IMG/VR virus record: IMGVR_UViG_3300010883_025052
Location: 1 to 50,918 of that record
Strand: one strand, 5' to 3'
Source: a virus
Length of the DNA stretch: 50,918 nucleotides
The notes under the pieces: generated by a model
What the model was told of the DNA's origin: nothing
Database searches by the model: none
What the model saw: the letters and a program-made list of their open reading frames with translations, nothing else
Position numbers and translations under genes: made by a program
Part shown: piece after piece, positions 1 through 25,613 of the stretch
Numbering within the stretch: the stretch's first letter is position 1
How the letters are laid out: each line of letters begins with the position of its first letter

Positions 1-118
1 AACATTTGTCAATACGAAGTAATTGAATTAGTTGCTGGTCTAATTAAAACCAGCTAACCTTGTAAACGACGTATTATTTGAAACATTCAGGACGGGGGTT
101 CGAATCCCCCCACCTCCA
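1..118 (+). ncRNA. ssrA: tmRNA, 3' portion only (5' part lies before the window)
   Basis: The end of this stretch has the tRNA-like 3' domain typical of tmRNA. There is a T-arm with stem 94-98 GGGGG / 106-110 CCCCC and loop TTCGAAT, preceded by TTCAGGAC, which is close to the TTTCGGAC that precedes the T-arm in bacterial tmRNA. The 3' acceptor strand is CACCTCC (111-117) with discriminator A118; CCA is not encoded. No D-arm, anticodon arm or matching 5' acceptor (GGAGGTG) lies within the preceding 90 bases, which argues against an ordinary tRNA. CTAACCTTGTAAACGAC resembles the CTAAGCATGTAG segment of E. coli ssrA, and GCTGGT...ACCAGC (about 34-54) can form a hairpin consistent with the pseudoknot region. 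The role would be rescue of stalled ribosomes. The tag reading frame would be upstream and cannot be seen. Confidence 0.8.
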
Positions 119-140
119 TAATTTTTACATAGGATTATAT

Positions 141-3265: not shown

Positions 3266-5197
3266 ATGTTTTCAGAAAATACTTTCGAAACTCCGCCTAC
3301 CCTATCAGAAGAATCTAAAATTGTCTTTGTTTCAGATTTTTTTATTGATGATTATGTTGGAGGTGCTGAACTAACAACAGATGCCATAATAAAATCTTGC
3401 CCTGTAAAATATGATACTTTAAAAAGTAATGAAGTAACAATGGAGTTATTAAGATCAGGGTATGAAAAATATTGGGTATTTGGAAATTTTGCTAATTTAA
3501 ATTTTGATTTAATACCAACGATTATTGCAAATATAAAATATTCAGTGCTTGAATATGACTATAAGTTTTGTAAATATCGATCAGTTGAAAAACATATGCT
3601 TACTGAGCAGACTGATTGTGACTGTCATAATGATTCTTATGGTAAGATTGTGTCTGCATTTATGCATGGTGCAGTATCTTCATGGTGGATGTCAGAAAAA
3701 CAGTTTGATATCCATTGCGAGAGATTTCCTTTTTATAGAGAAAATAACGCAACTATTCTAAGTTCCGTTTTTCACGGCGGTTTTTTCGAGAAATTACATG
3801 AAATTCGAAATAGAGAAAATTATGGTGAAAATAGAAATGGGTGGATTGTCCTAGGATCAACTAGTTGGGTTAAGGGAAGAGATGCTGCACTTAAGTGGTG
3901 TGAAGAAAATGATAAAGAGCATGAGGTTATATGGGATATCCCTTATGATGATGTCATTGAACGATTAGCAACTGCTGAAGGGTTTGTATATTTGCCGGCT
4001 GGGTCTGATACATGTCCCAGAATGGTTATAGAGGCAAAGTTATTAGGATGTAAGATAGTATTAAATGAACATGTTCAACATAAGGACGAGTTATGGTTTA
4101 ACACAGATAATCAAGTTGAAACTGAGTCATATTTATATGCCGCACGTGAAAGATTTTGGTCAGCGATAAAAAGTGAAATGGATTATAATCCAACTTTATC
4201 AGGGTACACAACAACGCTAAACTGTATTAAGCACAATTACCCATGGCGGGAAACCATAACCAGCATGTTAGGATTTTGTGATGATGTTGTTGTGGTCGAC
4301 GGTGGCTCTGATGATGGAACATGGGAACAATTAGAAGAATGGGCAGAATCAGAAACATGTTTAAGTGTACATAAAGTTTCTAGAAATTGGAACCATGAAA
4401 GATTTGCCGTATTTGATGGTGCACAAAAGGCTGAAGCTAGGACACGATGCTCCGGGAATTTTTGCTGGCAACAAGATGCAGATGAGGTCGTCCATGAATC
4501 TGACTATGAAAAAATTAGGCAGATGGTTCGTAACTTTCCAAGACACGCAGACTTAATGTGTTTGCCGGTTATTGAATATTGGGGTGGTCCAAATAAAGTG
4601 CGATGCGATATTAATCCATGGAAGTGGAGATTATCACGAAATAAAGATGTTATAACACATGGGATCCCTAGAGAACTGCAGGTTTTTGATGATGCCGGGC
4701 ACATATATGCATCTCCCGGAACAGACGGGTGTGATTATGTACATGCTAATACTTTCGAAAGGATTCCTCACTTAGGATTCTATACTAAAGAAATTGATGA
4801 TTGTCGTAATGCAGCTGTAATGGGCGACGAAACCAGTTTGGAAAAGTACGGAGCGTGGTATAAAAATGTAACAGAGCTACTACCATCGGTTCATCATTAT
4901 TCATGGTTTAATCTACCAAGAAAGATAAAAACGTATAGAGATTATTGGTCTAAGCATTGGCAAAGTCTTTATAACATAGAGCAAGAAGATACATCGGAAA
5001 ATAATATGTTTTTTGATAAAAGTTGGTCAAATGTATCTGACGATGATATTAAAACATTATCAGAGCGTTTATCAAAGGAGATGGGAGGGTGGGTTTTTCA
5101 CACAAAAGTCGACTTTTCTAAAAAAACACCTCATATATCACTACCTCAAGGTCATCCTAGTATTATACAAAACTGGGTTGAAGATGCCAAAAAATAA
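3266..5197 (+). CDS. Bifunctional glycosyltransferase (GT-B plus GT-A/GT2 fusion)
   Basis: A 643-aa protein with two apparently different sugar-transferase folds. The N-terminal half looks like a GT-B (GT4-type) enzyme: VGGAELTTDAI near residue 32 resembles the GGAE donor-side loop, and the segment around 190-290 (WIVLGSTSWVKGRD, then PAGSDTCPRMVIEAKLLGCK) is the usual C-terminal donor-binding domain with its E-rich motif. From about residue 312 a family-2 GT-A domain begins, with VVVVDGGSDDGTW and a DAD metal-binding motif near 404-406. It is the first gene of the cassette, after the repeat-rich spacer, and overlaps the next gene by 14 bp. Substrates cannot be read from the sequence. Confidence 0.85.
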   Translation: MFSENTFETPPTLSEESKIVFVSDFFIDDYVGGAELTTDAIIKSCPVKYDTLKSNEVTMELLRSGYEKYWVFGNFANLNFDLIPTIIANIKYSVLEYDYKFCKYRSVEKHMLTEQTDCDCHNDSYGKIVSAFMHGAVSSWWMSEKQFDIHCERFPFYRENNATILSSVFHGGFFEKLHEIRNRENYGENRNGWIVLGSTSWVKGRDAALKWCEENDKEHEVIWDIPYDDVIERLATAEGFVYLPAGSDTCPRMVIEAKLLGCKIVLNEHVQHKDELWFNTDNQVETESYLYAARERFWSAIKSEMDYNPTLSGYTTTLNCIKHNYPWRETITSMLGFCDDVVVVDGGSDDGTWEQLEEWAESETCLSVHKVSRNWNHERFAVFDGAQKAEARTRCSGNFCWQQDADEVVHESDYEKIRQMVRNFPRHADLMCLPVIEYWGGPNKVRCDINPWKWRLSRNKDVITHGIPRELQVFDDAGHIYASPGTDGCDYVHANTFERIPHLGFYTKEIDDCRNAAVMGDETSLEKYGAWYKNVTELLPSVHHYSWFNLPRKIKTYRDYWSKHWQSLYNIEQEDTSENNMFFDKSWSNVSDDDIKTLSERLSKEMGGWVFHTKVDFSKKTPHISLPQGHPSIIQNWVEDAKK

Positions 5198-5933
5198 TGA
5201 TTTAGTTATTGTTACACCGGCATGGAATTGTGAAAATTCCATACGACAAACATGCATGTCAGTTATTGCACAATCATATGATAATTGGAGAATGATTGTA
5301 GTTGATGATGTTTCATCTGATGCCACATCACAAAAAGTTGCTGATCTTTCGAATAATTTAGGTTTAGGAGAAAAAATATCAATCTTAAGAAGGGAAGAGA
5401 AATACGGTGAGGTAAGAAACACATATGATATTGTGCACGATCAATGTAATAAAAATGATATCGTTGTGCGGCTTGATGGAGGTGATTGGATTACTGATAA
5501 TGATTGTTTCTATATTTTAAATGAAATATACAAGAACCCCACATATGATCCCGCAGTCTTATGGACAGCCCATCGATGGGAATATAACACAAACCAAAAT
5601 ATATCAAATAACCTAGATTCATCGATGGATGTGTATACACACCCATGGGTCTCTAGTCATCTTAAAACTTTTCGAAAGTCATCCATGGATGGAATTAATA
5701 AGAAAAATTATTTTGATGAAAACGGTAGTTGGATTATGATAGCCTGCGATCAGGCTATATTCTTACCAATGCTAGAAAAGTCTAGGAGGGAGAAAAAAAA
5801 TCTTGTATATCTTCCTATGTGTATGTATCATTATTCAATAGATCTATTACGCGAAGATTTATTTACATGTGATAGATCACAACAACAAAAGTTTTCCGCG
5901 GAGCGGATTAGGAAACGAGGGTTTATAGAGTGA
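5184..5933 (+). CDS. Family 2 glycosyltransferase
   Basis: A 249-aa GT-A fold enzyme. It opens with LVIVTPAWNCENSIRQT, followed by SVIAQSYDNWRMIVVDDVSSD, the classic nucleotide-binding N-terminus of GT2 enzymes. RLDGGDW occupies the place of the usual DxD metal site. The ATG at 5184 is preferred over longer frames because the GT2 fold starts immediately after it; the upstream frame merely shadows the previous gene. It overlaps the previous gene by 14 bp and shares GTGA with the next, so the three are surely co-translated. Donor and acceptor are unknown. Confidence 0.85.
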   Translation: MPKNNDLVIVTPAWNCENSIRQTCMSVIAQSYDNWRMIVVDDVSSDATSQKVADLSNNLGLGEKISILRREEKYGEVRNTYDIVHDQCNKNDIVVRLDGGDWITDNDCFYILNEIYKNPTYDPAVLWTAHRWEYNTNQNISNNLDSSMDVYTHPWVSSHLKTFRKSSMDGINKKNYFDENGSWIMIACDQAIFLPMLEKSRREKKNLVYLPMCMYHYSIDLLREDLFTCDRSQQQKFSAERIRKRGFIE

Positions 5934-6880
5934 AGGTGGTATTTGAAAATGTTGATTTTAATTCTAACACCGGCCCTAATAGTTTCGGAGTAAAATTATC
6001 TAGATCATTCAATAGAAAAGGTATAATAACAAATTCTCCTAATCCAGATGTCAGACTAGCATTTATTCAGACGCTATTTCAAAATCATAGATTTCCAGAT
6101 GGGACCAGCCTGGGTAACCTGCCTTACGTTTTGAGACTAGACGGTATATTTTTCAATACGTCTCAAGACTGGCTTAAAATGAATACAGAAATTAAACAAT
6201 CATATCAGCATGCTGATGCTGTAATAATACAGTCAAGTTTTGATAAAAAGTTAATTGATTCATTTTTTGGAGAAAAGGACAATTGTCATGTTATTAGAAA
6301 TGGGACAGACTTAGAAATATTATCAAACATCCCTAAAGCTAGCTTAAAAATAGGCGAAGATAAGTATGATGAATTTTGGTTATGTGCATCTCATTGGAGA
6401 CCTCATAAGCGACTTTTTGATAATATAGCTTATTTTGAAAAGTTTAGAAGTCCCTCTTGTGCATTTTTAGTAGCAGGAAAAATGAGTAAAGAAGAGCATG
6501 AATTCATATCAAAAAAAGAGTATGTTTTTTATCTCGGAGAATTACCATGGTATCAGCTAATGTCGACGATGAAACTGTGTTCAACGTTTGTTCACTTGGC
6601 CTGGTTAGATCATTGCCCGAATGTTGTTGTCGATGCCAGGGCGGCCGGTTGCAGATTGGTGGTGTCATCTGCCGGAGGTACGGTTGAGCTAGCTAAGGAA
6701 AATGATATCGTAGTAATTGAGGATGAGTTTAATTTTGAGCCGGTTAAATTATATTCGCCTCCACCACTTGATTTTACTAAAATTCATATAACGGATGCTA
6801 GCAACGCTAAGTCGACGGTTGATATTGATGATACGGCAGAAAGTTATTTAGGCGTGTTAAATAGTGTTATTAGAAAGTGA
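5930..6880 (+). CDS. Glycosyltransferase, GT4-like
   Basis: A 316-aa GT-B type enzyme with a GTG start that overlaps the previous stop (GTGA). GAAACGAGGG upstream serves as ribosome binding site. The N-terminal domain begins VVFENVDFNSNTGPNSFG and includes DAVIIQSSFDKKLI, typical of retaining transferases that locate an acceptor-side loop. The C-terminal domain carries ASHWRPHKRLFDNI and AWLDHCPNVVVDARAAGCR, matching the donor-binding region of GT4 (P-N/V-E-A type, with D replacing the usual Glu). It belongs to the cassette operon. Substrate unknown. Confidence 0.8.
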   Translation: MKVVFENVDFNSNTGPNSFGVKLSRSFNRKGIITNSPNPDVRLAFIQTLFQNHRFPDGTSLGNLPYVLRLDGIFFNTSQDWLKMNTEIKQSYQHADAVIIQSSFDKKLIDSFFGEKDNCHVIRNGTDLEILSNIPKASLKIGEDKYDEFWLCASHWRPHKRLFDNIAYFEKFRSPSCAFLVAGKMSKEEHEFISKKEYVFYLGELPWYQLMSTMKLCSTFVHLAWLDHCPNVVVDARAAGCRLVVSSAGGTVELAKENDIVVIEDEFNFEPVKLYSPPPLDFTKIHITDASNAKSTVDIDDTAESYLGVLNSVIRK

Positions 6881-6886
6881 GAATTT

Positions 6887-7579
6887 ATGAGTGACTTAAC
6901 TATGAAGAGTATTTTAGAAAAACTTAACCCTGAATTAATTGCTAAATCAGAATTACCTGGAAAATTTGAATATATCTGGAAAATGGTAAACTCTCCAATT
7001 CAGGAACAAAAACTACAACAGTCCAATGTCGATCCAGAAGTAGGTAAACAAATATTAGAAAACTTTAAAAAGCGCGCGTTTCTACTTTCAGAAATAGCTC
7101 GCGTAATAGGTGCAAAAAATATTGCTGAAGTTGGTACTGCACAGGCTTGGCAATCATTAAGTTTTGCACAAGGGTTGATCAACCGATCGGCTACGGGTGA
7201 GGATGTAGGGAAAGTATATACATGTGATATTAGAGACGTCAGGAATATGATAGTCTGGAATAAACTTTCTGATTTTTGTCATTTTACTAATGGTACCAGT
7301 CGCGATATGCGTGAGAATATTGGTGAGAATAAAATTGATATGTTTTATGTTGATGGCTCGCATGATCAATATGCTATATTTCATGATGTATTAGCACTTA
7401 AGGAAACACAGGCAGATACTACGATGTGGGTTTTTGATGATTTTGATGATCGATTTGGTGGAGCAGTCGACATGGCTAGTTTAATGAAAATAAAAGATCT
7501 AGATCATGCAATATTTGACATGGGTCATACAGCTAGTGGACAACCCAACCATTTATTATTGTTATATGGAAGAATTTAA
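6887..7579 (+). CDS. SAM-dependent methyltransferase (class I, Methyltransf_24-like)
   Basis: A 230-aa Rossmann-fold methyltransferase. Motif I is IAEVGTAQAWQSLSFAQG, motif II region VYTCDIRD, and DMFYVDGSHDQYAIFHDV is the acidic loop with a metal-binding-like D-G-S-H typical of the Methyltransf_24 group. WVFDDFDDRFGG follows near the C-terminus. Relatives often sit in polysaccharide or sugar-modification clusters, so O-methylation of a sugar or glycan is the likely role here. It begins 6 bp after the upstream glycosyltransferase and ends directly against the next gene. Confidence 0.75.
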   Translation: MSDLTMKSILEKLNPELIAKSELPGKFEYIWKMVNSPIQEQKLQQSNVDPEVGKQILENFKKRAFLLSEIARVIGAKNIAEVGTAQAWQSLSFAQGLINRSATGEDVGKVYTCDIRDVRNMIVWNKLSDFCHFTNGTSRDMRENIGENKIDMFYVDGSHDQYAIFHDVLALKETQADTTMWVFDDFDDRFGGAVDMASLMKIKDLDHAIFDMGHTASGQPNHLLLLYGRI

Positions 7580-8611
7580 ATGAAGATTGTCTTTATCGTT
7601 TCAAATCAATCCATGTCAGTGGGTTCCTACAGAATATGGATTCATGATTTTTCTAAATATTTAAAATTTTCAGGATGTGAGATAAAGATAACAGGTAATA
7701 TTAATGAAATATGTGAAGATACTGACGTTGTTATATTAAGCAAAGGTGATTATAAAAAATCAGAGGAATGTAGATCAGTAACTAGTTGCCTAATAGGTGC
7801 GATCAATTTTTCAAATACGGATAAACATGATAAAAACATAGACTTTATTATAACCGGTTCACCTGAGGAGAGATTGAGTTTATTACCAAAATATAATAAT
7901 GTTTTTATAGTTAATCTAATAGAAGAAATGCACAATAGAAATTTCATGAAACTACATGAAGATAAATCTAGTGTATTGACTATAGGAATACATGGCAGTT
8001 ATACTCATGTGCCGAAGTTATCATACGGGTTTATCGATGCTGTTGAAGAAATTAACAATGAAAACCCTGGAACATTTAAGATATTAAGCATATCAAATCA
8101 ACCAAAAAATGCTCTTAATTTTTTTAATAGAATGGGTATTTCAAAAACTGAACTACAATGTAAAGAGTGGGAATATTTGACATTCTTACATGAAATAGAA
8201 CAAATGGATATAGGTGTCGTTTGTAATACATCTGATTTAACAAAAATGCATCCGGAACTTGATAATATTTTTGATCCAGAAGTAGGGTTATATAAATCTG
8301 ATTATGCAATAAGGTTTAAGAACAAGTCAAATCCTGGTCGCGCATTTGTATTTTTTCAATCCGGTATACCCATCATCGCGGATATGACTCCGAGCCACTT
8401 TCCCATGTTATTTGATGCGGAATGTGGATTTTTGGCAAGTAATAAAGAGTCATGGAAAAATGCTTTAAATAAATTAAGAGATGCCAAACTTCGACAAGGG
8501 ATGGCCGAGAAGGCCAATATCAGGTTTATGAACCTATACTCTATGCAAAGAGATGCAGACAATCTTGTGAAAAAAATAAAGGAAATAATTGATGTTAGAC
8601 ACCAGCAATAA
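7580..8611 (+). CDS. Glycosyltransferase-like protein (GT-B fold)
   Basis: A 343-aa protein that abuts the methyltransferase without a gap. The N-terminus MKIVFIVSNQSMSVGSYRIW resembles the start of GT4 enzymes (with S-V-G-S at the glycine-rich loop). The C-terminal part has VFFQSGIPIIADMTPSHFPML and CGFLASNKESWKNALNKLRD, the donor-domain pattern of GT4-type transferases followed by the usual C-terminal helix. The canonical E-x7-E motif is not clear, so activity is uncertain. It shares the polycistron with its neighbours. Confidence 0.65.
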   Translation: MKIVFIVSNQSMSVGSYRIWIHDFSKYLKFSGCEIKITGNINEICEDTDVVILSKGDYKKSEECRSVTSCLIGAINFSNTDKHDKNIDFIITGSPEERLSLLPKYNNVFIVNLIEEMHNRNFMKLHEDKSSVLTIGIHGSYTHVPKLSYGFIDAVEEINNENPGTFKILSISNQPKNALNFFNRMGISKTELQCKEWEYLTFLHEIEQMDIGVVCNTSDLTKMHPELDNIFDPEVGLYKSDYAIRFKNKSNPGRAFVFFQSGIPIIADMTPSHFPMLFDAECGFLASNKESWKNALNKLRDAKLRQGMAEKANIRFMNLYSMQRDADNLVKKIKEIIDVRHQQ

Positions 8612-9416
8612 ACAGGCATTCGTCGATAATATAGGGAAAAAAATGAGCGAACGTGAGTATGTTGCTGAAGAAGGATTTTTTTATATTGCTTTTGGTGAAG
8701 CATTTACGGCTGAGGCAATATTGTCTATAGAATCTTTAAAGAAACATAACCCAAATTGTAATGTTGCATTATATACAGATGCACCTCAGAATATAGATAA
8801 AGAAAAAGCTTCATTAGTTGATATCTTGTTAGGAATACAACCAAACCACATTAGGGCAAAGGTCGACTATATATCACATTCGCCGTTTCGAAAGACGTTG
8901 TACTTAGATTCAGATACGGTAATAGTCAGGAATATTGAAGATATCTTTACGTGCCTAGATCGGTTTGATGTATTAGTTACACATGACTATGCTAGAAAAA
9001 GAAAAAAGTATTCGAGCCTAGTACCAGAATATGAAGAGATACCGTACTCATTTTCTGAGGTTAATGGTGGTGTAATGGCATACGTGGCAAATGAAAAGAC
9101 GGAAAAGTTTTTAGATTTATGGAAAGAGTATTTCTATAAATACTTTCAACAAACTAATGGGTGGGATCAGGTTAGTTTGCGTGTATCATTATGGAAAAGC
9201 AATGTCTCAATTAATCATATGCCGTTTGAGTATAATATCCGTAGTCATGCAAATAGAGAGAAGCAAGATAGATTTCATCATGAATTTGGGGATGATCATT
9301 TAGCTCCCAGAATATATCACATGCATTATGATAATGAAATTCATCAGGGTGTATTTAAGATAACAGATTTAGGTGAGCTTGAAAAAATCGTAAAAGAGAA
9401 GGCAGTATGGTATTAG
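8592..9416 (+). CDS. Family 8 (glycogenin-like) glycosyltransferase
   Basis: About 274 aa. It contains FFYIAFGEAFTAEAILSIES, NVALYTD, KTLYLDSDTVIV with the GT8 metal-binding DSD, VNGGVMAY, and a C-terminal IYHMHYDN histidine motif, all in GT8 order. GT8 enzymes move glucose, galactose or related sugars with retention. Two starts are possible. ATG 8592 overlaps the upstream gene by 20 bp with AAGG nine bases before it, and ATG 8643 has AGGG before it and still keeps the whole fold. The longer form is given. It overlaps the sulfotransferase by 10 bp. Confidence 0.85.
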   Translation: MLDTSNKQAFVDNIGKKMSEREYVAEEGFFYIAFGEAFTAEAILSIESLKKHNPNCNVALYTDAPQNIDKEKASLVDILLGIQPNHIRAKVDYISHSPFRKTLYLDSDTVIVRNIEDIFTCLDRFDVLVTHDYARKRKKYSSLVPEYEEIPYSFSEVNGGVMAYVANEKTEKFLDLWKEYFYKYFQQTNGWDQVSLRVSLWKSNVSINHMPFEYNIRSHANREKQDRFHHEFGDDHLAPRIYHMHYDNEIHQGVFKITDLGELEKIVKEKAVWY

Positions 9417-10297
9417 TGGCAGACGTAGAGTTAACGCTAAGTAATGATTTCACGTATCTTTTATTTATAGGTGCCGGTAGGACTGGATCCTCTGCAGTAG
9501 GTCAAATGCTGAATGCACACCCGAACATATGTGTATCTAATGAGACTCGGCATGTACGTAAATGTATTGAAAATGATCTAGAAATATGTGATACTATCGA
9601 TATTGTAATACAGGCAGCAATAAATGATCTATGTACCGGTGTTGAAAAATATTCGATTTCTGATTCACAGTCTTTATCACGACGTAAAAAGATTCAGAGA
9701 GGTTGGGTCGATATGGGATCACACTTTGAATCGGCCGGCCTCAAAAAAGAGTTAATACAATACGTTGGTGATAAGAAACAAGGTGGAAATTCTAGGGTTT
9801 TTTTTGAACACCCGTATATTTTTATGGAAAAATTTGCCAATGTAAGATGGAGACCGATATCTATTGTTCGTCGCCCATCACAAATTATGTTATCATCATT
9901 TAATTGTATACCAGATGCAAAGCTTCGAGATCCTCATGACACAAAAAGCTTGAAACTATTGGATGAGATATGTAAGAAATTTATGTCAGAGATGGTGGCA
10001 TCCTTTGCAATTTGTGAATTAAGTAATAATCCTCTGATATTATGCTATGAAGATTTAATGAATGATTCATATGGTTTTGCAAGAAACATAGAAGAATCCC
10101 TAAAGCTCAAGCATAATGATAAATGGTGCAACCTGGTGTCTAATACGACTACAAAGTTTGAAGATAGGATACCAACCAATAAGCAGTTGAATGTTTTAGT
10201 ATCTAATCCCGGGTTTGAATCATTTTATCAAAGACTTAAAAAATATGGTATAGTTGATGAGTATGTTGAGAAATATATTAAGGAATTTCCACGGTGA
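9407..10297 (+). CDS. Sulfotransferase-family protein
   Basis: A 296-aa protein starting LLFIGAGRTGSSAVGQML near residue 20, the 5'-phosphosulfate-binding P-loop of PAPS-dependent sulfotransferases, followed by NAHPNICVSNE. The segment RPISIVRRPSQIMLSSFN matches the 3'-phosphate-binding region, where Arg and Ser contact PAPS. CYEDLMND follows, as in the family. It would transfer sulfate to a sugar or other hydroxyl/amine. It overlaps GT8 upstream by 10 bp and the next gene by 4 bp (GTGA), which places it inside the glycan cassette. Confidence 0.8.
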   Translation: MVLVADVELTLSNDFTYLLFIGAGRTGSSAVGQMLNAHPNICVSNETRHVRKCIENDLEICDTIDIVIQAAINDLCTGVEKYSISDSQSLSRRKKIQRGWVDMGSHFESAGLKKELIQYVGDKKQGGNSRVFFEHPYIFMEKFANVRWRPISIVRRPSQIMLSSFNCIPDAKLRDPHDTKSLKLLDEICKKFMSEMVASFAICELSNNPLILCYEDLMNDSYGFARNIEESLKLKHNDKWCNLVSNTTTKFEDRIPTNKQLNVLVSNPGFESFYQRLKKYGIVDEYVEKYIKEFPR

Positions 10298-11484
10298 TAT
10301 ATAAGTCTAAAAATGGAGAGATTGATGAAGCTTTACTTTGTAATGAGGGGATTTCTCATATTTTTTCTAGGTATAGTGCTTTAAAAAATAGATGGCCCAC
10401 CCTAGCAGAAGTACAACGTAATATGCCAAAGATGAGGAATGCAAAGAATGCAATTGCTCCCGTTGAACATGACGTTAACTATAAAAAGAAAATTCCTACT
10501 CTCTCAGAAGAAAAGTTAAATATTTTATTTTCACATTTTTCTCCTTTCAAATATGAAGTTGAAGGTTTGGGTTTACCCCTATATGCTGCAAAAGCATTTC
10601 CGAACTCTACAATTCATTTCACTTATGATAAGCATGAAACTAATCCTTTAATTTTTGAGGCAACGAAAGAAGGAAAAACGAGTAGGATTAATGGATATCT
10701 GGAAAAATATGATGCAGTAATTGCCAGATCTAATGTTTTGGTAAAGATGCAAAATCGAGCAACTGATAAGCTAGTGCTAGACAATAGCGGTCCAAAAGTT
10801 TTAATTAAGCATATGTCCTTGCAATCTAATATGAAATTCGCAGATTTATATTTTAATGAAGAGGATTTTTATCCCCTATTAGATCCAGAGTGTAGAGATT
10901 CAGTCGCCGGCTCATTAGATAAGTTTAATAAAGAAAAAATAATTCTACTTCCCGGCACTTTGTGGAGTGTAAAAACGCAATTAGACTTTATTAGACAGGT
11001 TGATAGTAAGTTGATTAAAGGCTATCACATAATATTTGTTGGCCCCCTTAGGGATAAGGGTTATGTTCAAAAAATAATTTCTGAGTGTGATAAGAAAGAT
11101 TTAGATTATAGTTTTTTGGGAAATGTTAGTGATTTATTTTTGATGGATTTATTTGCGCTATCTGAAATTGTTGCAATACCAATGGATCCAAAAGATTGCG
11201 GACAGCCTGGTGGATACCCTAGGGTACTGGGCGAGGCAATTGGGTGCAGGTGTATATGCGTCTGTGCTAAAACTGTGACTGTCCCACCTGCACTTTCAAA
11301 GTATTGCCTTTCCTATGATCATCATTTAGAAAATGAATTGAATAACAAATTATCAGATATCATTGACAAGTATGATGACGTTGTAAAAGACAGGGGTATA
11401 GTTTGGGATGAAATTATTTTTGAAGACATATGTCAAAAAACCCTAGTTGATGCATTGGGAGATCATCTAGATCTCAAGGTCTAA
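10294..11484 (+). CDS. Glycosyltransferase, GT4-like
   Basis: A 396-aa protein with a GTG start overlapping the previous stop by 4 bp and AAGGA as ribosome binding site. The first 80 residues are hydrophilic and not recognisable. The region KLNILFSHFSPFKYEVEGLGL begins a GT-B N-domain, and KIILLPGTLWSVKTQLDFI, YHIIFVGPL and PGGYPRVLGEAIGCRC make up the donor domain of GT4, with E of LGEAIG in the position of the family's nucleotide-contacting Glu. Donor and acceptor are unknown. Confidence 0.8.
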   Translation: MIYKSKNGEIDEALLCNEGISHIFSRYSALKNRWPTLAEVQRNMPKMRNAKNAIAPVEHDVNYKKKIPTLSEEKLNILFSHFSPFKYEVEGLGLPLYAAKAFPNSTIHFTYDKHETNPLIFEATKEGKTSRINGYLEKYDAVIARSNVLVKMQNRATDKLVLDNSGPKVLIKHMSLQSNMKFADLYFNEEDFYPLLDPECRDSVAGSLDKFNKEKIILLPGTLWSVKTQLDFIRQVDSKLIKGYHIIFVGPLRDKGYVQKIISECDKKDLDYSFLGNVSDLFLMDLFALSEIVAIPMDPKDCGQPGGYPRVLGEAIGCRCICVCAKTVTVPPALSKYCLSYDHHLENELNNKLSDIIDKYDDVVKDRGIVWDEIIFEDICQKTLVDALGDHLDLKV

Positions 11485-11488
11485 AAAG

Positions 11489-12280
11489 ATGAAAAAGATA
11501 ATCATTTTCACAAAGCCTGATTCAAGGTATAGGGAATTTATAGAAACGGCCGAGTCATTAGTCAAAAATATTTTGTGGATTGTTCCTGAAGAGTCTGATA
11601 TTTTCAATATGAATAATCTTTTAGATCCTACATGCAATAATAACATAATAAGTCATCCTAGAAAAAAAGATATTATGTTTGACATCTTTGCTCGAACAGT
11701 ATCGCTATATTCAAATTGCATAATATCATTTTATTATAACCGCATAATACAGGAAAGTGTTTTAGGGACTATGAGATTTAAGTTTAATTTTCATGGTTCT
11801 TTATTACCTGATTATGCTGGTTCGCATGCTTTGAATTGGCAAGTATTAAGAGGCGAAACCAAAACAGGCGTAACTGTTCATGAATTAACTAATAAGATCG
11901 ATACCGGAAGAATCGTACTACAAAAAAGCTTTGATATACATGAGGATCATACGGCCACTGATGTATTATTAGGTGGCGTTCATGTTTCATGTGAGCTATT
12001 AAATGAATTATTATCTAGAATCACCGGTGATAAACTTGAGTATTCCAAAAATACCCTTAAGGGAGATGAGTTTGAGTGTGTAAAGAGGACGGAAAAAGAT
12101 GGTGAGATAACAACGGTTATGTCACCAACTGATATTGTAAATTTATCCAAAGCGCTTGTTCATCCATGGCCTGGTGTTTATTATATGTTGCATGGTAAAA
12201 AATATATTATAAGACGTGTGTTATCTGAAAATGATGCTAGTAACATATTGGAAAAATTAAATCATGGGAAAAAAACTTAG
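11489..12280 (+). CDS. Formyltransferase, sugar N-formyltransferase type
   Basis: A 263-aa enzyme of the methionyl-tRNA/sugar formyltransferase family, which uses N10-formyl-tetrahydrofolate. FKFNFHGSLLPDYAG holds the catalytic N100 and H102, and NKIDTGRIV supplies D138. This N-x-H...D spacing equals that of the ArnA formyltransferase domain (N102, H104, D140). A C-terminal subdomain follows (VHPWPGVYYMLHGKKYIIRRV), as in Fmt/ArnA. In a glycan cluster the likely substrate is an amino-sugar nucleotide rather than initiator tRNA. The gene overlaps the second formyltransferase by 17 bp. Confidence 0.85.
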   Translation: MKKIIIFTKPDSRYREFIETAESLVKNILWIVPEESDIFNMNNLLDPTCNNNIISHPRKKDIMFDIFARTVSLYSNCIISFYYNRIIQESVLGTMRFKFNFHGSLLPDYAGSHALNWQVLRGETKTGVTVHELTNKIDTGRIVLQKSFDIHEDHTATDVLLGGVHVSCELLNELLSRITGDKLEYSKNTLKGDEFECVKRTEKDGEITTVMSPTDIVNLSKALVHPWPGVYYMLHGKKYIIRRVLSENDASNILEKLNHGKKT

Positions 12281-12986
12281 AATAGGTATTTTTGCATATA
12301 ATTTTAAACACTGGAAAACTCAAGAAGGAATCAGAAATCTTTGTATAGCCGGTTTTAAGCCAGCCGTAATATTTGCGGCTGAGCCAGTTCAGTTAAATTT
12401 TTATAGGTCTAAAATTCGTGTAGGTCCAAAAGATTTATTTTTATGGCACCCCAGTAAAATTGCAGAGTTTTATAATATAGATTATCACGTAGTAATACAT
12501 AACTCAAATGAAACATCTGATCTGGTTAAGAAATATGATTTAGATGTAGGTGTTATTTTAGGTGCCAGGATATTAAAGCCAATTGCATTTGATAATTTTA
12601 AGATCGGCGTTATTAATATGCACCCGGGAATCCTCCCCCAAAATAGAGGTTTAGATAATTTAAAATGGGCAATTCTTAATAACTTACCCCAGGGCGTTAC
12701 ATCACATCTAATTGATAAAAATATTGATAGAGGGTTGATAATAACACAGGATAAAATATTAATATATGAAGATGATACTATGATTGATCTTCATATAAGA
12801 ATTCAAAGTCTAGAGCAACGTTTAATGATTGAATCATTAAGATTTTTAAGTGAAAATGGAAAATCGGGATTATCTGCTTTAGGAAAGGGGACATATTATA
12901 AATCCGTCCCAGAAGATATAGAATCAACATTAAATAAAAAATTTAAAGATTATAAGAAAAGAATGAGTAATGCCAGTAGCGATTAG
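12264..12986 (+). CDS. Second formyltransferase-family protein
   Basis: A 240-aa protein with the formyltransferase core. VINMHPGILPQNRGLDNLKW gives N118 and H120 of the active site, and KNIDRGLIITQ gives D155. It lacks the C-terminal subdomain of the neighbouring enzyme and replaces the usual S-L-L-P with G-I-L-P, so it belongs to a different subgroup. The tandem pair suggests two different amino-sugar substrates or a catalytic/regulatory pair. It overlaps the upstream gene by 17 bp and the aminotransferase by 17 bp. Confidence 0.8.
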   Translation: MGKKLRIGIFAYNFKHWKTQEGIRNLCIAGFKPAVIFAAEPVQLNFYRSKIRVGPKDLFLWHPSKIAEFYNIDYHVVIHNSNETSDLVKKYDLDVGVILGARILKPIAFDNFKIGVINMHPGILPQNRGLDNLKWAILNNLPQGVTSHLIDKNIDRGLIITQDKILIYEDDTMIDLHIRIQSLEQRLMIESLRFLSENGKSGLSALGKGTYYKSVPEDIESTLNKKFKDYKKRMSNASSD

Positions 12987-13776
12987 AAATATATTTGAGG
13001 AATACGTAAGAGATCGTTTTAATCTAGAAGATTGTATTGCCGTGAATAATGGAACCGCAGCGTTAATTGCGCCTCTATGGTCACTTGACTTAGAGCCAGG
13101 CGATGAAGTTATTACAACACCCTTTACTTTTATCGCAACCACAAATGCAATAGTAGTTGCTGGTGGTATACCGGTATTTGTTGATATAGATCCTGAAACC
13201 TATCTTATTGATCCAAATAAAATTGAGGCTGCAATTACAGAAAAAACGAAGGCAATTATCCCTGTTCATTTATATGGGAGAGTTTGTGGTATGGATACAA
13301 TTAATGAAATTGCAAAGCGTTATGATATTGTAGTAATAGAAGACACGGCACAGGCATTTGGTGCTGAACATAATTCTGGAATATATGCAGGAATGCTAGC
13401 AGATTGTGGAACTTTTTCTTTCTATAAAACAAAAAACATATCAACGTTTGAAGGGGGTATGATCTGTATGCCTCAAGGGACCCGCCTGGATAGTAATAAG
13501 ATTAGGTCAATTTGTGATCAAGGCCAGGTGGGAAAATATAATCATGAATATATTGGTTTTAATTTTAGGCTAGCCGAACCTCTGTGCTTAATGGCATTAG
13601 AGCAAATGAAGATTCATATGACAGGAATTAAAGCCGAACTTGGGATAAGGGGCCCAGAGCAAGGGCATTATCCAAACGTCATATATGATCAACCTGCTTA
13701 TAGAAAAAAAGGAATCACCGGTAATTGCCCCGTGGCTGAAACGGTTGCGTTATCTATCAAAAATAGAAACAAATGA
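12970..13776 (+). CDS. Shortened DegT/DnrJ/EryC1-family sugar aminotransferase
   Basis: A 268-aa PLP-dependent aminotransferase-like protein; the family usually has about 370-400 residues. Present: NNGTAAL (26-32, phosphate binding), TPFTFIATTNA, VFVDIDPETYLID, IPVHLYG, IEDTAQAFGA (D125, pyridine-N contact), SFYKTKNISTFEGGM (K155, Schiff-base lysine) and GFNFRLAEP. Three parts are missing compared with the family: about 30-35 residues before the NGTAAL region, about 65 residues of the small domain between LEQM and YDQPAYRK, and the C-terminal tail after CPVAE. An in-frame TGA six bases before the ATG excludes a longer start. It may be active in reduced form, partner-dependent, or decaying. 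It overlaps WbqC through ATGA. Confidence 0.8.
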   Translation: MPVAIRNIFEEYVRDRFNLEDCIAVNNGTAALIAPLWSLDLEPGDEVITTPFTFIATTNAIVVAGGIPVFVDIDPETYLIDPNKIEAAITEKTKAIIPVHLYGRVCGMDTINEIAKRYDIVVIEDTAQAFGAEHNSGIYAGMLADCGTFSFYKTKNISTFEGGMICMPQGTRLDSNKIRSICDQGQVGKYNHEYIGFNFRLAEPLCLMALEQMKIHMTGIKAELGIRGPEQGHYPNVIYDQPAYRKKGITGNCPVAETVALSIKNRNK

Positions 13777-14495
13777 AAAACGTTAGTATACACCAACCAA
13801 ATTTTGCACCATGGCTAGGCTTCTTTTTTAAGGTAGCTAGATCAGATGTACATGTATTTTTAGATCATGTTGAATATTCAAAAAACGGGTGGACAAACAG
13901 GAATATAATTCCCATTGCAGGTAAAGATCATTATTTAACGATTCCAGTTAGCAAAAGTTGTACCTCAAAAAGGATATGTGACATTAGAATACCAGACACT
14001 AATGCTAATGCACATAAGAAAATTATTAAAACAATATCAAATCAATATGCAAAATCACCAGGCCATGATCTTATATGTGGGTTCTTTGAGAAAAAGCTAA
14101 CTTTATTTCACGAAAAAAAGATGTCTGACTTTAATTCTGAAATAATATTATGGGCAGCAGAAGTACTAGGCATTGAGACGCCCTTCCTAAAGTCATCAGA
14201 TATTAGTGGGATTGATAATTTTAAAAAGTCTGATTTAGTATTGGGTATATGTCATAATTTAAGTGCCGGAAACTATATAACCGGTGTAGGTGGTACTTCA
14301 TATCTCAATTATGATGACTTTAACTCTAGGGGTATTCATATTTCTAGTCTGGATATTAAAAGTGAATATACGTTTCATAAAAATACATATATGACAAAAT
14401 ATTCTGTTATTGACTTTATATCAAGAAATGGTGTATACAGTAAGGACATATTTAAGCAATTACTTTCTGGCGTGACTTCAAGTTTTTTGGTCTAA
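13773..14495 (+). CDS. WbqC-family protein
   Basis: A 240-aa protein starting VSIHQPNFAPWLGFFFKV, followed by DHVEYSKNGWTNRNII and LTIPVSK, then TGVGGTSYLNYDDF near the C-terminus. These are the conserved features of the WbqC family (the H-Q-P-x-Y/F-x-P-W opening). WbqC proteins are found beside DegT aminotransferases and formyl/acyl-transferases in O-antigen clusters, and their precise reaction is not established. The ATGA overlap with the shortened DegT gene supports a shared step. Confidence 0.9.
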   Translation: MKNVSIHQPNFAPWLGFFFKVARSDVHVFLDHVEYSKNGWTNRNIIPIAGKDHYLTIPVSKSCTSKRICDIRIPDTNANAHKKIIKTISNQYAKSPGHDLICGFFEKKLTLFHEKKMSDFNSEIILWAAEVLGIETPFLKSSDISGIDNFKKSDLVLGICHNLSAGNYITGVGGTSYLNYDDFNSRGIHISSLDIKSEYTFHKNTYMTKYSVIDFISRNGVYSKDIFKQLLSGVTSSFLV

Positions 14496-14497
14496 TT

Positions 14498-15160
14498 ATG
14501 ATTTGTGATTTTAGTATAAAACACTATTCCGATTGCCTAAAGAATGCCATACGGTTAGGATACACTTTTTTTAGAATTAGTGATATAGACTTTACTACAT
14601 TATCACCGAAAGATTTAAAAATTATTATACGTCATGATGTTGATCATGATTTATCTTTAGTTAAGAATTTTAGTAGAGAAGAGACAAATCTAGGTATATG
14701 TGCAACATATTATGTTAGATTACACGCAAAAAAATACAATCTACTGTCATATGAGAATATAAAAATAGTTGAGAGACTTCTCGAAGATGGTCACGAAATA
14801 GGGTTGCATTATGAATTTGGGTGGTCATACGATACGCATGAAAGAAATCTTCAAAAACTTGAATGTGAGATATTGTACTTGCGGGAAATATTTGGGGAAA
14901 ATACTTTTAAATCAGTATCTCCTCATGAGCCATCAAGATCAGGTGATATAAAAATCAGTGAAGCGTTTATGAAAAAAAATGGTTTAACAATTCACTCATA
15001 TGATAGACGACTGTTAACAAATTTCAAATACATATCGGATAGCAGCTGTAGATGGCGGGAGGGATGTATGCATGATCATATAAGGTCGATGACGACGCCT
15101 CTTTATATATTAACACACCCTGTTTGGTGGTATCAAAACACGCCATCAGAATGTTATTAA
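14498..15160 (+). CDS. Polysaccharide deacetylase-like (NodB fold) protein
   Basis: A 220-aa protein with IIIRHDVDHDLSL (D47, D49), resembling the NodB catalytic/metal Asp motif, then HEIGLHYEFGW (H104) as the second metal-ligand region, and SPHEPSRSGD. A C-terminal LTHPVWWYQ fits the last conserved His motif. Canonical members remove N-acetyl groups from GlcNAc polymers. This short form belongs to the group found in glycan and O-antigen clusters with unclear substrates. It starts 2 bp after the WbqC stop. Confidence 0.75.
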   Translation: MICDFSIKHYSDCLKNAIRLGYTFFRISDIDFTTLSPKDLKIIIRHDVDHDLSLVKNFSREETNLGICATYYVRLHAKKYNLLSYENIKIVERLLEDGHEIGLHYEFGWSYDTHERNLQKLECEILYLREIFGENTFKSVSPHEPSRSGDIKISEAFMKKNGLTIHSYDRRLLTNFKYISDSSCRWREGCMHDHIRSMTTPLYILTHPVWWYQNTPSECY

Positions 15161-15173
15161 CGGGAGAAGCAAA

Positions 15174-16046
15174 TTGAAAATATGCGTAATAGGTGTTGGG
15201 AAGATGGGGAAAATACACCTGAAATACATAAAGGCACTAGGTGTGAATTGGTGTTGGCTAGACCCAAACGTTGATTCGGATCCAGATGCTTATTCTGAGT
15301 ACTATAGAATGTATTCATTAGATGATTTAAACCATCTTAATGTAACGCATGTTATTGTTGCAACCCCGGAGAGTACGCACTATACTATAATGAACCAAAT
15401 AATGCAGGCCGATAAAACTAACAATATAAAGATTCTAGTTGAGAAACCGGCAATTATAGATAGGGAACATATGCACATAATGGACGCTAGCAATATTTCA
15501 ACAGGAATGGTCGAGAGGTTTAATCCTGCTATACAATCATTAAAAAAGGTGATTGATGTTGACGCAGTTTTGAGCATAGATTTTGTAAGATGTTCAACAA
15601 TGCCAGTATCAAATCGTAATGTTTCATCATTGGTTGATGTAGGAATACATGACATAGATCTATTCTGTTATTTATTTCCAGACGAAGATGTAGTAGAGAA
15701 AAAAATAATGGTCAATTCTGATACATACACACTATCATTAATGACCGCTAATAATATTATAGGCAGGTTTATTTGGAGTAATGAGACATTTTATAAAGAA
15801 AGAAAAGTGACCGTGCGTCAATGTGACTGTGGATATAGCTTAGATCTAATTGATCAGGTTGTAAAGCAGTTTTCAGTATCAAAGGATGGTACTTTGGCAA
15901 ATACTGTTAGAGATATTTATGTCGAAAAGAAGTCCCCAATACTATCTGAAATTCAGGCATTCATAAATGATGAAATAGTTGATGCAAGGAAGTCACATGC
16001 ATTATATTTTGATATATTATCAGCACTTAAACTTAAGCAGAATTAA
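15174..16046 (+). CDS. Gfo/Idh/MocA-family NAD(P)-dependent oxidoreductase
   Basis: A 290-aa oxidoreductase with a TTG start, chosen because GGGAGAAG lies just upstream and KICVIGVGKMGKIHLKYI, the GxGxxG Rossmann loop, begins at residue 2. The EKP motif is in ILVEKPAIID, and the downstream GIHDIDLFCYL resembles the catalytic G-x-H-x-x-D of the family. In Wlb/Wbp-type pathways such enzymes oxidise C3 of UDP-GlcNAcA ahead of a DegT transaminase. That role fits the neighbours but is inference. An 82-bp gap follows. Confidence 0.85.
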   Translation: MKICVIGVGKMGKIHLKYIKALGVNWCWLDPNVDSDPDAYSEYYRMYSLDDLNHLNVTHVIVATPESTHYTIMNQIMQADKTNNIKILVEKPAIIDREHMHIMDASNISTGMVERFNPAIQSLKKVIDVDAVLSIDFVRCSTMPVSNRNVSSLVDVGIHDIDLFCYLFPDEDVVEKKIMVNSDTYTLSLMTANNIIGRFIWSNETFYKERKVTVRQCDCGYSLDLIDQVVKQFSVSKDGTLANTVRDIYVEKKSPILSEIQAFINDEIVDARKSHALYFDILSALKLKQN

Positions 16047-16128
16047 TTTACTTATATTGATGTACAAACGGCCTTTTTTTAGAAAAATTAACAATATGTT
16101 CTTAATTTAGAAAGCTAGGAAATTTTAA

Positions 16129-16992
16129 ATGAAGTGTGGTGATACAGTTGGACTAGTAGGATCCGGATTCGTGGGAGGATCTTTGAGAACAACCTTCGGA
16201 TCTTTTTATAAAGTAAATGTATTTGACTTAGATGAAACAAAAAGAAATGTAGACTCCATTGCCGATTTGGTAAAGAGTACAAACCTTATTTTTATCTGTA
16301 TTCCTACGCCGATGAGATCCGATGGATCTTGTCATATAGGGTATGTCGAAGATGTATTAAATGAGATAAGCAAAGAGAATTTTAAAAAGAACAATAACAG
16401 AATTACATGCGTTATAAAGTCTACGGTACCACCGGGAACAACTCGGGAGTTACAATCAAAATATGAAAATATATCCCTGGTTTTCTATCCAGAGTTTTTG
16501 ACTGAGGCAAATGCATTATTCGATTTCAAAAACCAAAATAGAATTGTGCTGGGAACTGATGATCCTAGTGCATTAGAGATCGTACGTGAATGTTTGGGAA
16601 ACGTTTTTAAAAGAACACAATTTATAAATATGACATCATGTGAAGCAGAGTTGGTAAAATACTTTACGAATAGCTATCTTTCAACGAAGGTAATTTTTGC
16701 AAATCAGATGGAAGAGTATTGTAGAAAGAAGGATATAAATTATTCTCGTGTGGTCGCTGCCGCATGTCTTGATAAGAGAATTACTGAGTCTCATTTTAAC
16801 GTTCCAGGACCGGATGGCGACTACGGGTTTGGTGGTCATTGTTTTCCAAAAGATTTAAATTCAATGATATATGAGTTTGAGACATATGGGATGGACGATT
16901 CTATTTTTCATAAAGTTTGGGATTTAAATTGTAGGTATAGGGAAAATAAAGATTGGGAAAAAATGAAAAATAGAGCAGTTATTGAGGATTAA
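16129..16992 (+). CDS. Short UDP-glucose/GDP-mannose-family 6-dehydrogenase
   Basis: A 287-aa nucleotide-sugar dehydrogenase; full-length enzymes have about 390-440 residues. Rossmann loop GSGFVG (11-16), CIPTPMRSDG, KSTVPPGTT (98-105), FYPEFLTEANAL, ELVKYFTNSYLSTKVIFANQ (K177 and K187 regions) and the catalytic GFGGHCFPKDL with C238 are all present. The C-terminal NDP-sugar-binding domain is missing; the protein ends about 45 residues after the Cys motif. It would oxidise a C6 hydroxyl to a carboxylate, giving a uronic acid. Whether it can bind substrate without the third domain is open. AGGA precedes the ATG, and it abuts the epimerase gene. Confidence 0.85.
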   Translation: MKCGDTVGLVGSGFVGGSLRTTFGSFYKVNVFDLDETKRNVDSIADLVKSTNLIFICIPTPMRSDGSCHIGYVEDVLNEISKENFKKNNNRITCVIKSTVPPGTTRELQSKYENISLVFYPEFLTEANALFDFKNQNRIVLGTDDPSALEIVRECLGNVFKRTQFINMTSCEAELVKYFTNSYLSTKVIFANQMEEYCRKKDINYSRVVAAACLDKRITESHFNVPGPDGDYGFGGHCFPKDLNSMIYEFETYGMDDSIFHKVWDLNCRYRENKDWEKMKNRAVIED

Positions 16993-17865
16993 ATGAGAAT
17001 TTTAGTTACCGGAGGTTTGGGGTTTGTTGGTTCTCACTTAGTTGATTATCTAAGTGAAAATACAGAATCAGAGATAGTTGTAATTGATAATCTTTCATCT
17101 GAATCTTCAAACAGAAATTATATACGAGATGGTGTAACATATTGGATCGATGATATTGCAAATCTTAATACATATCGTTATGAGAATGAAAGATTTGATT
17201 TAGTATATCATTTGGCTGCATTAGCTAGAATACAACCATCATTTAAAGATCCTTTAAAGTATTTGAATATAGACATAATGGGCACTGCTCATGTTTGTGA
17301 GTTTGCACGTCGTTCTGGCCCTAGCACAAAAATTATTTATGCCGGATCTTCCTCTGCGTTTGGTGGACCAATGTTAAATCCATATGCTTTTGCAAAATTT
17401 ACCGGTGAACAATGTTGTGAGATGTACTCGGAGGTCTATGAGTTGAGTACCGTCACGGCTAGGTTTTTCAATGTATACGGCACACGCCAACCTACTTCCG
17501 GACCATATGCAACAGTTGTAGGTGTGTTTGAGAAACAGACTAATGATGGCCATGACTTAACAGTCACAGGCACTGGTGAACAAAGAAGGGACTTTACCCA
17601 CGTGTCAGATATAGTGTCTGGCCTAATATCATTATCTAAGAATGCATATTCTGGTAATGTATATCAACTAGGTACAGGCAAGAATTACTCTATAAATGAT
17701 CTTGCAAACATGTTTGGGGGAAACATAAGATATATCTCGCCAAGGCCAGGTGAAGCATGGACGACACTAGCAAACTTTGATAACATACATAAAGCTACGG
17801 GATGGTTTCCGAAAGTTTCTTTAGAAATGTATATAGATGAAATGAAATTACAAATTGCCAAATAA
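16993..17865 (+). CDS. NAD-dependent nucleotide-sugar epimerase/dehydratase
   Basis: A 290-aa extended short-chain dehydrogenase (GalE-like). TGGLGFVGSHLVDYL is the NAD-binding loop, IDDIANL follows, YHLAALARIQPS is the second NAD contact, YAGSSSAFGG supplies the Ser, and NPYAFAKFTGE is the YxxxK catalytic pair. RFFNVYGTRQP and RRDFTHVSDIV are the classic substrate-domain motifs. The likely reaction is C4 epimerisation, or C4-keto formation, of an NDP-sugar. It starts directly at the stop of the 6-dehydrogenase and ends 10 bp inside the nuclease gene. Confidence 0.9.
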   Translation: MRILVTGGLGFVGSHLVDYLSENTESEIVVIDNLSSESSNRNYIRDGVTYWIDDIANLNTYRYENERFDLVYHLAALARIQPSFKDPLKYLNIDIMGTAHVCEFARRSGPSTKIIYAGSSSAFGGPMLNPYAFAKFTGEQCCEMYSEVYELSTVTARFFNVYGTRQPTSGPYATVVGVFEKQTNDGHDLTVTGTGEQRRDFTHVSDIVSGLISLSKNAYSGNVYQLGTGKNYSINDLANMFGGNIRYISPRPGEAWTTLANFDNIHKATGWFPKVSLEMYIDEMKLQIAK

Positions 17866-18700
17866 CTCAAACACAATTCAATTTCCTACCAAGAAACCTC
17901 ATATATCATATTCAGAAGTTAGAATATGGAAAGAATGTCCATGGAAGCATAAGCTAACATACATTGACAAAATTGATCTCTTTAAGCCTTCACCTTTTTT
18001 AGATTTTGGCACCGCCGTACATGAGGGCTGTGAATCAATTATTAATGGGGAACCAATAGATCGTGAAGGTTTATGTGAAGGAATAAGGTCAGCATGGGAA
18101 AAGAATGGGTTTGATGATCAAGACTGGGTTTCAAAGCAACCTGGTTGGTATAAGTATCATCACCATGATACATGGATCAGCTGGGCTAATAGTATGTGGG
18201 ATCACATCCCCGGTTTTTTAGATGATACATTTCCCGGGTGGGAACCTATTAAGGCTGAGGCTGAGCTATATGAAAATATAGACAATGATAATATAAAGTT
18301 CAAGGGTCTTATCGACGCTATTATTAAGGCACCTAAAAAAAGAGGCAAGGGTCATGAATACTGGATCCTTGACTGGAAAACGGCAAATGCTTATGGCTGG
18401 CGCAGAGAAAAGAAGCAAGATATCTTAATGACGGCACAGTTAATTCTATATAAGCATTTTTGGTCAAAAAAACTAGGAATACCATTAGATGAAGTTAGAT
18501 GCGGATTTATTCTTTTAAAGCGTGGCGGGAAGCCTGGAAAAGTTTGTGAATTAGTAAAGGTTTCTGCCGGCCCAAAGGCACTTGAGAAGGCAACAAAAAT
18601 AGTCCGAAGTATGTTAACCATGGTGAGAAAAGAATTTTATATCAAGAATAGAAACTCATGTACATATTGTCCTTACAAGGATACGGAGCACTGCACGTAG
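17855..18700 (+). CDS. PD-(D/E)XK nuclease with Cas4/AddB-type Fe-S cluster motif
   Basis: A 281-aa RecB-family nuclease. The early SEVRIWKECPWKHKL has C28. GTAVHEG gives H56, GLIDAI gives D154, and ILDWKT gives D173 and K175, followed by a TAQLILYK Gln motif. The C-terminus SCTYCPYKDTEHC gives C269, C272 and C280. The single N-terminal Cys plus three C-terminal Cys is the 4Fe-4S arrangement of Cas4 and AddB. A TTG start overlapping the epimerase by 11 bp is used because no ATG precedes the conserved region. No cas1/cas2 or CRISPR array is present, so a phage recombination or DNA-degradation role is more likely than adaptation. Confidence 0.9.
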   Translation: MPNNSNTIQFPTKKPHISYSEVRIWKECPWKHKLTYIDKIDLFKPSPFLDFGTAVHEGCESIINGEPIDREGLCEGIRSAWEKNGFDDQDWVSKQPGWYKYHHHDTWISWANSMWDHIPGFLDDTFPGWEPIKAEAELYENIDNDNIKFKGLIDAIIKAPKKRGKGHEYWILDWKTANAYGWRREKKQDILMTAQLILYKHFWSKKLGIPLDEVRCGFILLKRGGKPGKVCELVKVSAGPKALEKATKIVRSMLTMVRKEFYIKNRNSCTYCPYKDTEHCT

Positions 18701-25608: not shown

Positions 25609-25613
25609 TATTA

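Follow-up and report, generated by a model that had tools for sequence, protein, structure and literature searches.

The sugar gene island and its conserved frame

The DNA analysed here, called the window, is the whole IMG/VR record IMGVR_UViG_3300010883_025052 (positions 1 to 50,918; 50,918 nucleotides), which is of the linear class, probably a fragment, and assigned to a marine jumbo myovirus. Its left third contains an FtsZ/tubulin-like gene, phoH, 16 sugar genes (A to P), a PD-(D/E)XK nuclease gene (Q), two family 4 glycosyltransferase (GT4) genes (R and S), a late-sigma-like gene and baseplate genes (Table 1). The 16 sugar open reading frames (ORFs), within 3266-17865, all lie on the + strand, with inter-gene gaps of at most 82 nt and overlaps of 4-20 nt at about half of the junctions. 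An initial annotation of the window had described about 16 consecutive sugar genes, and this count held, the ORFs being tightly packed and having recognisable active sites. This sugar gene island occupies the same position in related phages, its frame is conserved and its interior variable, motifs are intact in most genes, close relatives are under purifying selection, and membrane-embedded glycan machinery was not detected in it.

A PhoH search returned 79 loci, and 41 of 50 relatives proved to have Q. Considering 38 phoH-to-baseplate stretches and two short loci, 40 relatives were compared, giving 41 islands with that of the window. In these 40 relatives, which come from separate metagenomes, the island lies at the same place, from phoH to the nuclease gene, and the order is constant: phoH, a small ORF, mostly one or two giant genes, A, B, C, variable genes, O, P, Q, R, S, a small ORF and the sigma-like gene. 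B, C, O and P are missing from some islands. In nearly all relatives A comes first in the island and the nuclease gene is followed by R and S. Related phages thus place the cassette boundaries at phoH on the left and Q on the right, with R and S added beyond. The functional block reaches past Q and ends at 21216, and R and S, outside the coordinates first annotated, are part of the same system. Chance and chimerism are excluded because a homologous arrangement is present in 40 other contigs; a host-DNA assembly chimera, which the initial annotation had considered as a possible artefact, was rejected on this common frame and on the even GC content.

The phoH-to-Q interval ranges from 3.3 kb (L077) to 44 kb (G001), with 14.8 kb in the window, and the A-to-Q distance from 0.2 to 31 kb across islands. 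When island genes of at least 120 amino acids (aa) were clustered at 30% identity, the 760 genes of the 41 islands formed 346 families, including 240 singletons; 756 of the 760 are on one strand. Pfam searches with 126 genes of five islands gave epimerases, transferases, UDP-sugar dehydrogenases, methyltransferases, cytidylyltransferases, NeuB and carbamoyltransferases, and we therefore infer that relatives make other sugars, nonulosonic acids among them. In one relative (L116, G020) several ORFs of the size of sugar genes, one of them GT2-like, lie between phoH and A on the opposite strand, as a rare inversion or insertion. A scan of GTDB with the WbqC protein for a host or donor gave only matches of about 30%, in unrelated bacteria, and no clue to the host.

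Four pairs of close islands gave median ratios of nonsynonymous to synonymous substitution rates (dN/dS) of 0.038-0.067, with a maximum of 0.19. In all window genes that have a homologue, the proportion of nonsynonymous differences (pN) is far below that of synonymous ones (pS) in the comparison with the nearest homologue, dS being saturated for most of these comparisons. The possibility, raised with the initial annotation, that most genes are inactive did not materialise: an inactive block was rejected for most genes on the intact motifs and the purifying selection.

On the left flank, an FtsZ/tubulin-like GTPase gene also lies upstream of phoH in about 11 relatives; PhoH and the baseplate genes do not point to a PhiKZ-like phage. 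Past the baseplate genes, three very large genes (1157, 1032 and 2206 aa) occupy 29130-42315 of the window; a Laminin_G_3 lectin-like domain (E 3e-10) is present in the first of them.

Table 1. Features of the island and its flanks, with window coordinates and supporting matches
Feature	Position	Strand	Evidence
FtsZ/tubulin-like GTPase, left flank; true start inside ORF	78..1316	+	TIGR00065 E 3.6e-7; PF00091 E 0.0019
PhoH-like ATPase, left boundary	1719..3026	+	phrog_2765 E 6e-99; 79 viral loci
A, conserved two-domain glycosyltransferase: N-terminal GT-B-like, C-terminal GT2/GT-A with DxDE	3266..5197	+	PF13704/PF00535
B, GT2 glycosyltransferase, probable start 5184 not 5013	5184..5933	+	PF00535 E 3e-15; family in 25/41 islands
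C, GT4 glycosyltransferase	5930..6880	+	PF00534 E 1e-10; family in 18/41 islands
D, O-methyltransferase-like (Methyltransf_24)	6887..7579	+	PF13578 E 5e-12
E, probable GT-B transferase	7580..8611	+	no Pfam match; Agl16 NF041010 E 0.0027, far below cut-off; homologues in two relatives
F, Nucleotid_trans/GT8-like transferase, DxD present, probable start 8592, later than that of its mechanical ORF	8592..9416	+	PF03407 E 6e-6
G, sulfotransferase with motif of the phosphoadenosine phosphosulfate (PAPS) loop	9407..10297	+	PF13469 E 6e-8
H, GT4-like glycosyltransferase	10294..11484	+	PF13692 E 1e-5, slightly under curated cut-off
I, sugar N-formyltransferase (ArnA-like), Asn/His/Asp set present	11489..12280	+	PF00551 E 3e-19; ArnA alignment
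J, second sugar N-formyltransferase, catalytic set present	12264..12986	+	PF00551 E 4e-16; PDB matches including sugar formyltransferases
K, compact DegT/DnrJ/EryC1/StrS sugar aminotransferase, 268 aa, pyridoxal phosphate (PLP) lysine kept	12970..13776	+	PF01041 E 3e-73
L, WbqC-family protein	13773..14495	+	PF08889 E 3e-52
M, polysaccharide-deacetylase-like, by motif	14498..15160	+	RHDxD and GHEIGLH, common to G004 homologue
N, Gfo/Idh/MocA dehydrogenase, UDP-N-acetylglucosamine (UDP-GlcNAc) 3-dehydrogenase type	15174..16046	+	NF040723 E 3e-23, below its cut-off; nearest structure PDB 7bvj E 4e-10
O, compact UDP-sugar 6-dehydrogenase without C-terminal domain, catalytic Cys present	16129..16992	+	PF03721/PF00984
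P, short-chain dehydrogenase/reductase (SDR) sugar epimerase, SSSA and YxxxK	16993..17865	+	PF01370 E 2e-44
Q, PD-(D/E)XK nuclease, right boundary	17855..18700	+	PF12705 E 7e-22; in 41/50 relatives
R, conserved core GT4	18755..20008	+	PF00534 E 9e-15; in 39 relatives; also cultivated Flavobacterium and Microcystis phages
S, conserved core GT4, start moved from 19987	20011..21216	+	PF00534 E 2e-9; after R in relatives and isolates
gp25- and gp6-like baseplate genes, flank	25099..27467	+	phrog_43, phrog_219; full-length homologues in Flavobacterium phage immuto

Active sites and predicted sugar chemistry

The description of the block as a phage cassette for glycan assembly and modification, far beyond the decoration with a single sugar, is supported. 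Its glycosyltransferases belong to two folds (GT-A and GT-B) and not to three as first annotated. Homologues of F with 61-63% identity exist in two relatives (G016 and G050), and the G050 copy also matches PF01501.

Alignments with ArnA and related enzymes show that I and J retain the Asn/His/Asp set. O retains the catalytic Lys, Asn, Cys and Asp of UDP-glucose dehydrogenases and is missing the C-terminal UDP-binding domain; its homologues in 22 relatives are mostly of 279-331 aa, with the GGxC-PKD motif in 20. In P, the Ser region and YxxxK are kept. The Ser-Glu pair that UDP-glucuronic acid (UDP-GlcA) decarboxylases have at this place is missing in the window and in the relatives; for this reason P looks like a 4-epimerase, and a role as UDP-xylose synthase was rejected.

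The EKP and DxxxH motifs are present in N. Compared with DegT aminotransferases, K is missing an internal stretch and both ends, its PLP lysine being kept; the AlphaFold (AF2) model has a predicted local distance difference test score (pLDDT) of 83, and its best folds are perosamine synthase and WbpE. A homologue of 273 aa with 73% identity exists in G015, which makes a decayed pseudogene unlikely; in G046 the copy is broken into two ORFs that overlap. Several phage lineages have compact DegT aminotransferases, 214-273 aa long (window 12970-13776; L108:520-1341; L170:19531-20175). Both a 3-dehydrogenase (N) and an aminotransferase (K) of the UDP-GlcNAc(A) 3-amino-sugar pathway (GnnA/GnnB, WbpB/WbpE type) are thus present with active-site motifs. 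M, annotated as a deacetylase, shares its RHDxD and GHEIGLH motifs with a relative, and its family search returned no significant match.

Taken together, we infer that a 3-amino and then 3-formamido UDP-sugar, plus UDP-uronic acids, are products of the island. O and P would supply the uronic sugars (UDP-GlcA, then its 4-epimer), N followed by K would give the 3-amino sugar, to which I or J would add the N-formyl group, and M, D, G and L may deacetylate, methylate, sulfate or acylate sugars.

The acceptor of the glycan and competing explanations

Membrane proteins are nearly missing from the island: at least three transmembrane segments were predicted for one of the 760 island genes, an ORF on the reverse strand, compared with 23 of 97 genes of eight bacterial WbqC-carrying loci, the count being made by simple hydropathy, which is crude, and the phage records being fragments. 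The families PF02397 (initiating phosphoglycosyltransferase, PglC), PF00953 (WecA type), PF01943 (flippase, Wzx) and PF04932 (ligase/polymerase, Wzy-C) gave no match in 17 long relatives, whereas each was detected in 9-13 of 14 control genomes. The synthesis of nucleotide-diphosphate sugars and several glycosyltransferases, as in O-antigen loci, are present; the export and initiation set of such loci (phosphoglycosyltransferase with Wzx/Wzy) was not found, ABC exporter families not having been searched by name. Soluble phage-encoded transferases without lipid-carrier genes, as expected of a virion glycosylation system, are present.

Gene A is the first gene of nearly all islands. An alignment of 35 members shows invariant DGxS and DxDE motifs, and the AF2 model has a pLDDT of 91.6. 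No match to A was found in 50,697 phage records, and none in cultivated phages. Its nearest solved structure by profile is GmaR, with a weak E-value of 0.0025, and by fold SunS (E 2e-9, low TM-score), heparosan and chondroitin synthases coming next. GmaR is the flagellin O-GlcNAc transferase of Listeria and SunS is a peptide transferase. For R, the nearest solved structure is the chlorovirus glycosyltransferase B736L. In most relatives (L082-L152), one or two fibre-like proteins of 700-2356 aa, rich in Ser, Thr and Gly, are encoded between phoH and A, and the [ST]GS motifs of these giants are three times as frequent as the shuffled expectation. Many giants begin like MAKDFRADQIRTxxIIGSGS, and Pfam gave no fibre match. 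The structural likeness of A and R, together with the [ST]GS-rich giants, favours a protein as the putative acceptor.

With moderate confidence, we therefore interpret the locus as a hypervariable island of sugar-nucleotide and glycosyltransferase genes at a fixed site (phoH-A...Q-R-S-baseplate genes) of a marine jumbo-myovirus lineage, encoding a soluble pathway that would place formylated, sulfated and methylated amino and uronic sugars on an acceptor in the cytosol, with fibre proteins of the virion as the most likely candidates. A cytosolic acceptor is favoured because there is no lipid-carrier glycosyltransferase, flippase or polymerase, because the island lies in the tail and baseplate half of the genome, and because giants lie beside A in relatives. 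The fixed location next to tail genes, an enzyme set that fits the synthesis of 3-amino, N-formyl sugars and the Q-R-S core adjoining a sugar cassette in two cultivated phages are consistent with this interpretation. In the cytoplasm, the soluble A, B, C, E, F, H, R and S would assemble a short oligosaccharide directly on a protein, most likely one of the tail fibre or of another part of the virion. The core common to the islands would come from A, R and S and the tip from the variable genes, and frequent gene replacement would alter the sugars on the phage surface, with effects on host attachment, shielding or stability. More tentatively, A may be the founder of a previously undescribed family of phage glycosyltransferases, which act on proteins in the cytosol and attach the first sugar to giant tail fibres, and the island may be a swappable chemistry module that diversifies the glycan coat of the virion, as bacteria do with the O-antigen, but without membrane machinery.

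Several points weigh against glycosylated virion fibres. A virion glycan is here predicted from genes, and neither a GT-A nor a GT-B fold tells which acceptor is used. The similarities to GmaR and SunS are weak, and no giant lies between phoH and A in the window. Transferases of the lipopolysaccharide (LPS) core are soluble, and missing membrane genes are thus compatible with a lipid acceptor.

This last point leads to the main alternative, which we judge rather unlikely: soluble transferases would extend or modify, on the cytoplasmic side, the core of LPS or lipooligosaccharide or a lipid-linked O-unit, host transporters would export the product, and superinfection by competitors would be blocked. 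The enzyme types are those of O-antigen loci, soluble core transferases would make a phage membrane protein unnecessary, and a change of the host O-chain was preferred by the authors who described a similar island in pelagimyophages (PMC7029224). However, no initiating phosphoglycosyltransferase, flippase or polymerase was found in the 41 islands or the 17 long relatives, up to 35 genes would be maintained for a host that is soon lysed, and the island lies in the tail region, with fibre-like genes inside the islands of relatives.

Still less probable is DNA hypermodification, in which the conserved transferases would glycosylate hydroxymethylcytosine of the phage and the variable genes would diversify the sugar against restriction. 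Thymidylate-synthase (TS) family proteins occur in 7 of the 17 long relatives, those read having Asp at the position of Asn177, as in dCMP hydroxymethylases, and pentose-modified phage DNA is known (PMC12838424; RB69, PMC6024577). Six such proteins (L156-L161, from G005, G004, G020, G038, G008 and G017) have this Asp for Asn177 (MRSNDAVFGFCND, MRSSDLIFGIAYD), which suggests that they are candidate dCMP hydroxymethylases and that DNA may be modified in part of the lineage. Nevertheless, the island carriers G048 (284 kb) and G031 (237 kb), both fragments, have no TS-family protein, P has no UDP-GlcA decarboxylase residues, which leaves the pentose route unsupported, and the number of genes is far above that of known DNA-sugar pathways. 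No enzyme for hydroxymethylated bases was found in the window fragment, and a TET/JBP search, run without a positive control, found nothing.

Finally, that the genes are stuffer DNA, acquired to fill a headful capsid and without selected function, as considered for cyanophage LPS clusters (PMC3037559), is highly improbable and already contradicted by the present data in spite of the wide presence/absence variation and the many singletons, because dN/dS is near 0.04-0.07 in close relatives and pN well below pS for window genes with homologues, with catalytic residues kept, nearly all genes on one strand and core genes conserved at both ends.

The initial annotation named host surface, virion and nucleotides as possible targets without choosing among them; the weight now shifts to a cytosolic acceptor, the host surface being possible through soluble transferases of the LPS-core type and DNA being the least likely of the three.

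Comparison with known systems

LPS clusters of phages came to light with the first large cyanophage genomes; if they are functional, their product may go on the host, the virion or the DNA. The conserved frame, swappable interior, purifying selection and missing membrane genes make their function and target testable, because the cultivated phages immuto and Mel-JY01 carry the R-S core. If virion glycosylation is true, ocean phages would vary their own coat sugars as bacteria do, which bears on host range and on the reading of metagenomic "auxiliary metabolic genes".

A close counterpart in marine myoviruses is the host-recognition cluster (HRC) of pelagimyophages and cyanomyophages (means of 44.6 kb and 34.2 kb, respectively), also a hypervariable island, which holds tail fibres and many glycosyltransferases (PMC7029224). 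As in the HRC and the LPS clusters, a hypervariable region lies here at a fixed place within the tail-gene region. The lineage however differs: the baseplate protein matches only Flavobacterium phage immuto, Microcystis phage Mel-JY01 and one uncultured huge phage, and not T4-like pelagimyophages or cyanomyophages; the frame is phoH-A-...-PD-(D/E)XK-R-S, sugar genes dominate, membrane proteins are missing and A has no match in phage records. F and the sulfotransferase G also have no match in the 50,697 phage records, and N has one, of 24%.

In cyanophages P-SSM2, S-SSM7 and S-SM2, LPS gene clusters are found in the biggest genomes, near phoH or hli genes (near phoH for one in P-SSM2); they are sporadic and possibly "stuffer" (PMC3037559), whereas the present island occurs in nearly every member examined, its end genes are conserved and purifying selection on it is strong. 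Moraphages are large aquatic phages, mostly from freshwater, with PhoH, gp25, gp6, a sigma factor and four core putative glycosyltransferases, and variable genomic islands were noted in them, the contents of which that paper did not examine (PMC12619734).

Immuto (MW353176) and Mel-JY01 share the succession PD-(D/E)XK, GT4 (R) and GT4 (S), followed by further transferases and a methyltransferase, immuto having an aminotransferase and an epimerase as well. In these two isolates, by contrast, the cassette is on the opposite side of R-S, short (about 10 genes or fewer) and without a full-length homologue of A. In bacterial flagellin glycosylation islands and in chlorovirus capsid glycosylation, soluble sugar-nucleotide enzymes and transferases modify a protein while it is in the cytoplasm, with a conserved core and variable tip sugars; the island resembles these systems without being a member of them. 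Large clusters of sugar genes in phages are already known as such; the fixed frame and the core transferase are apparently undescribed.

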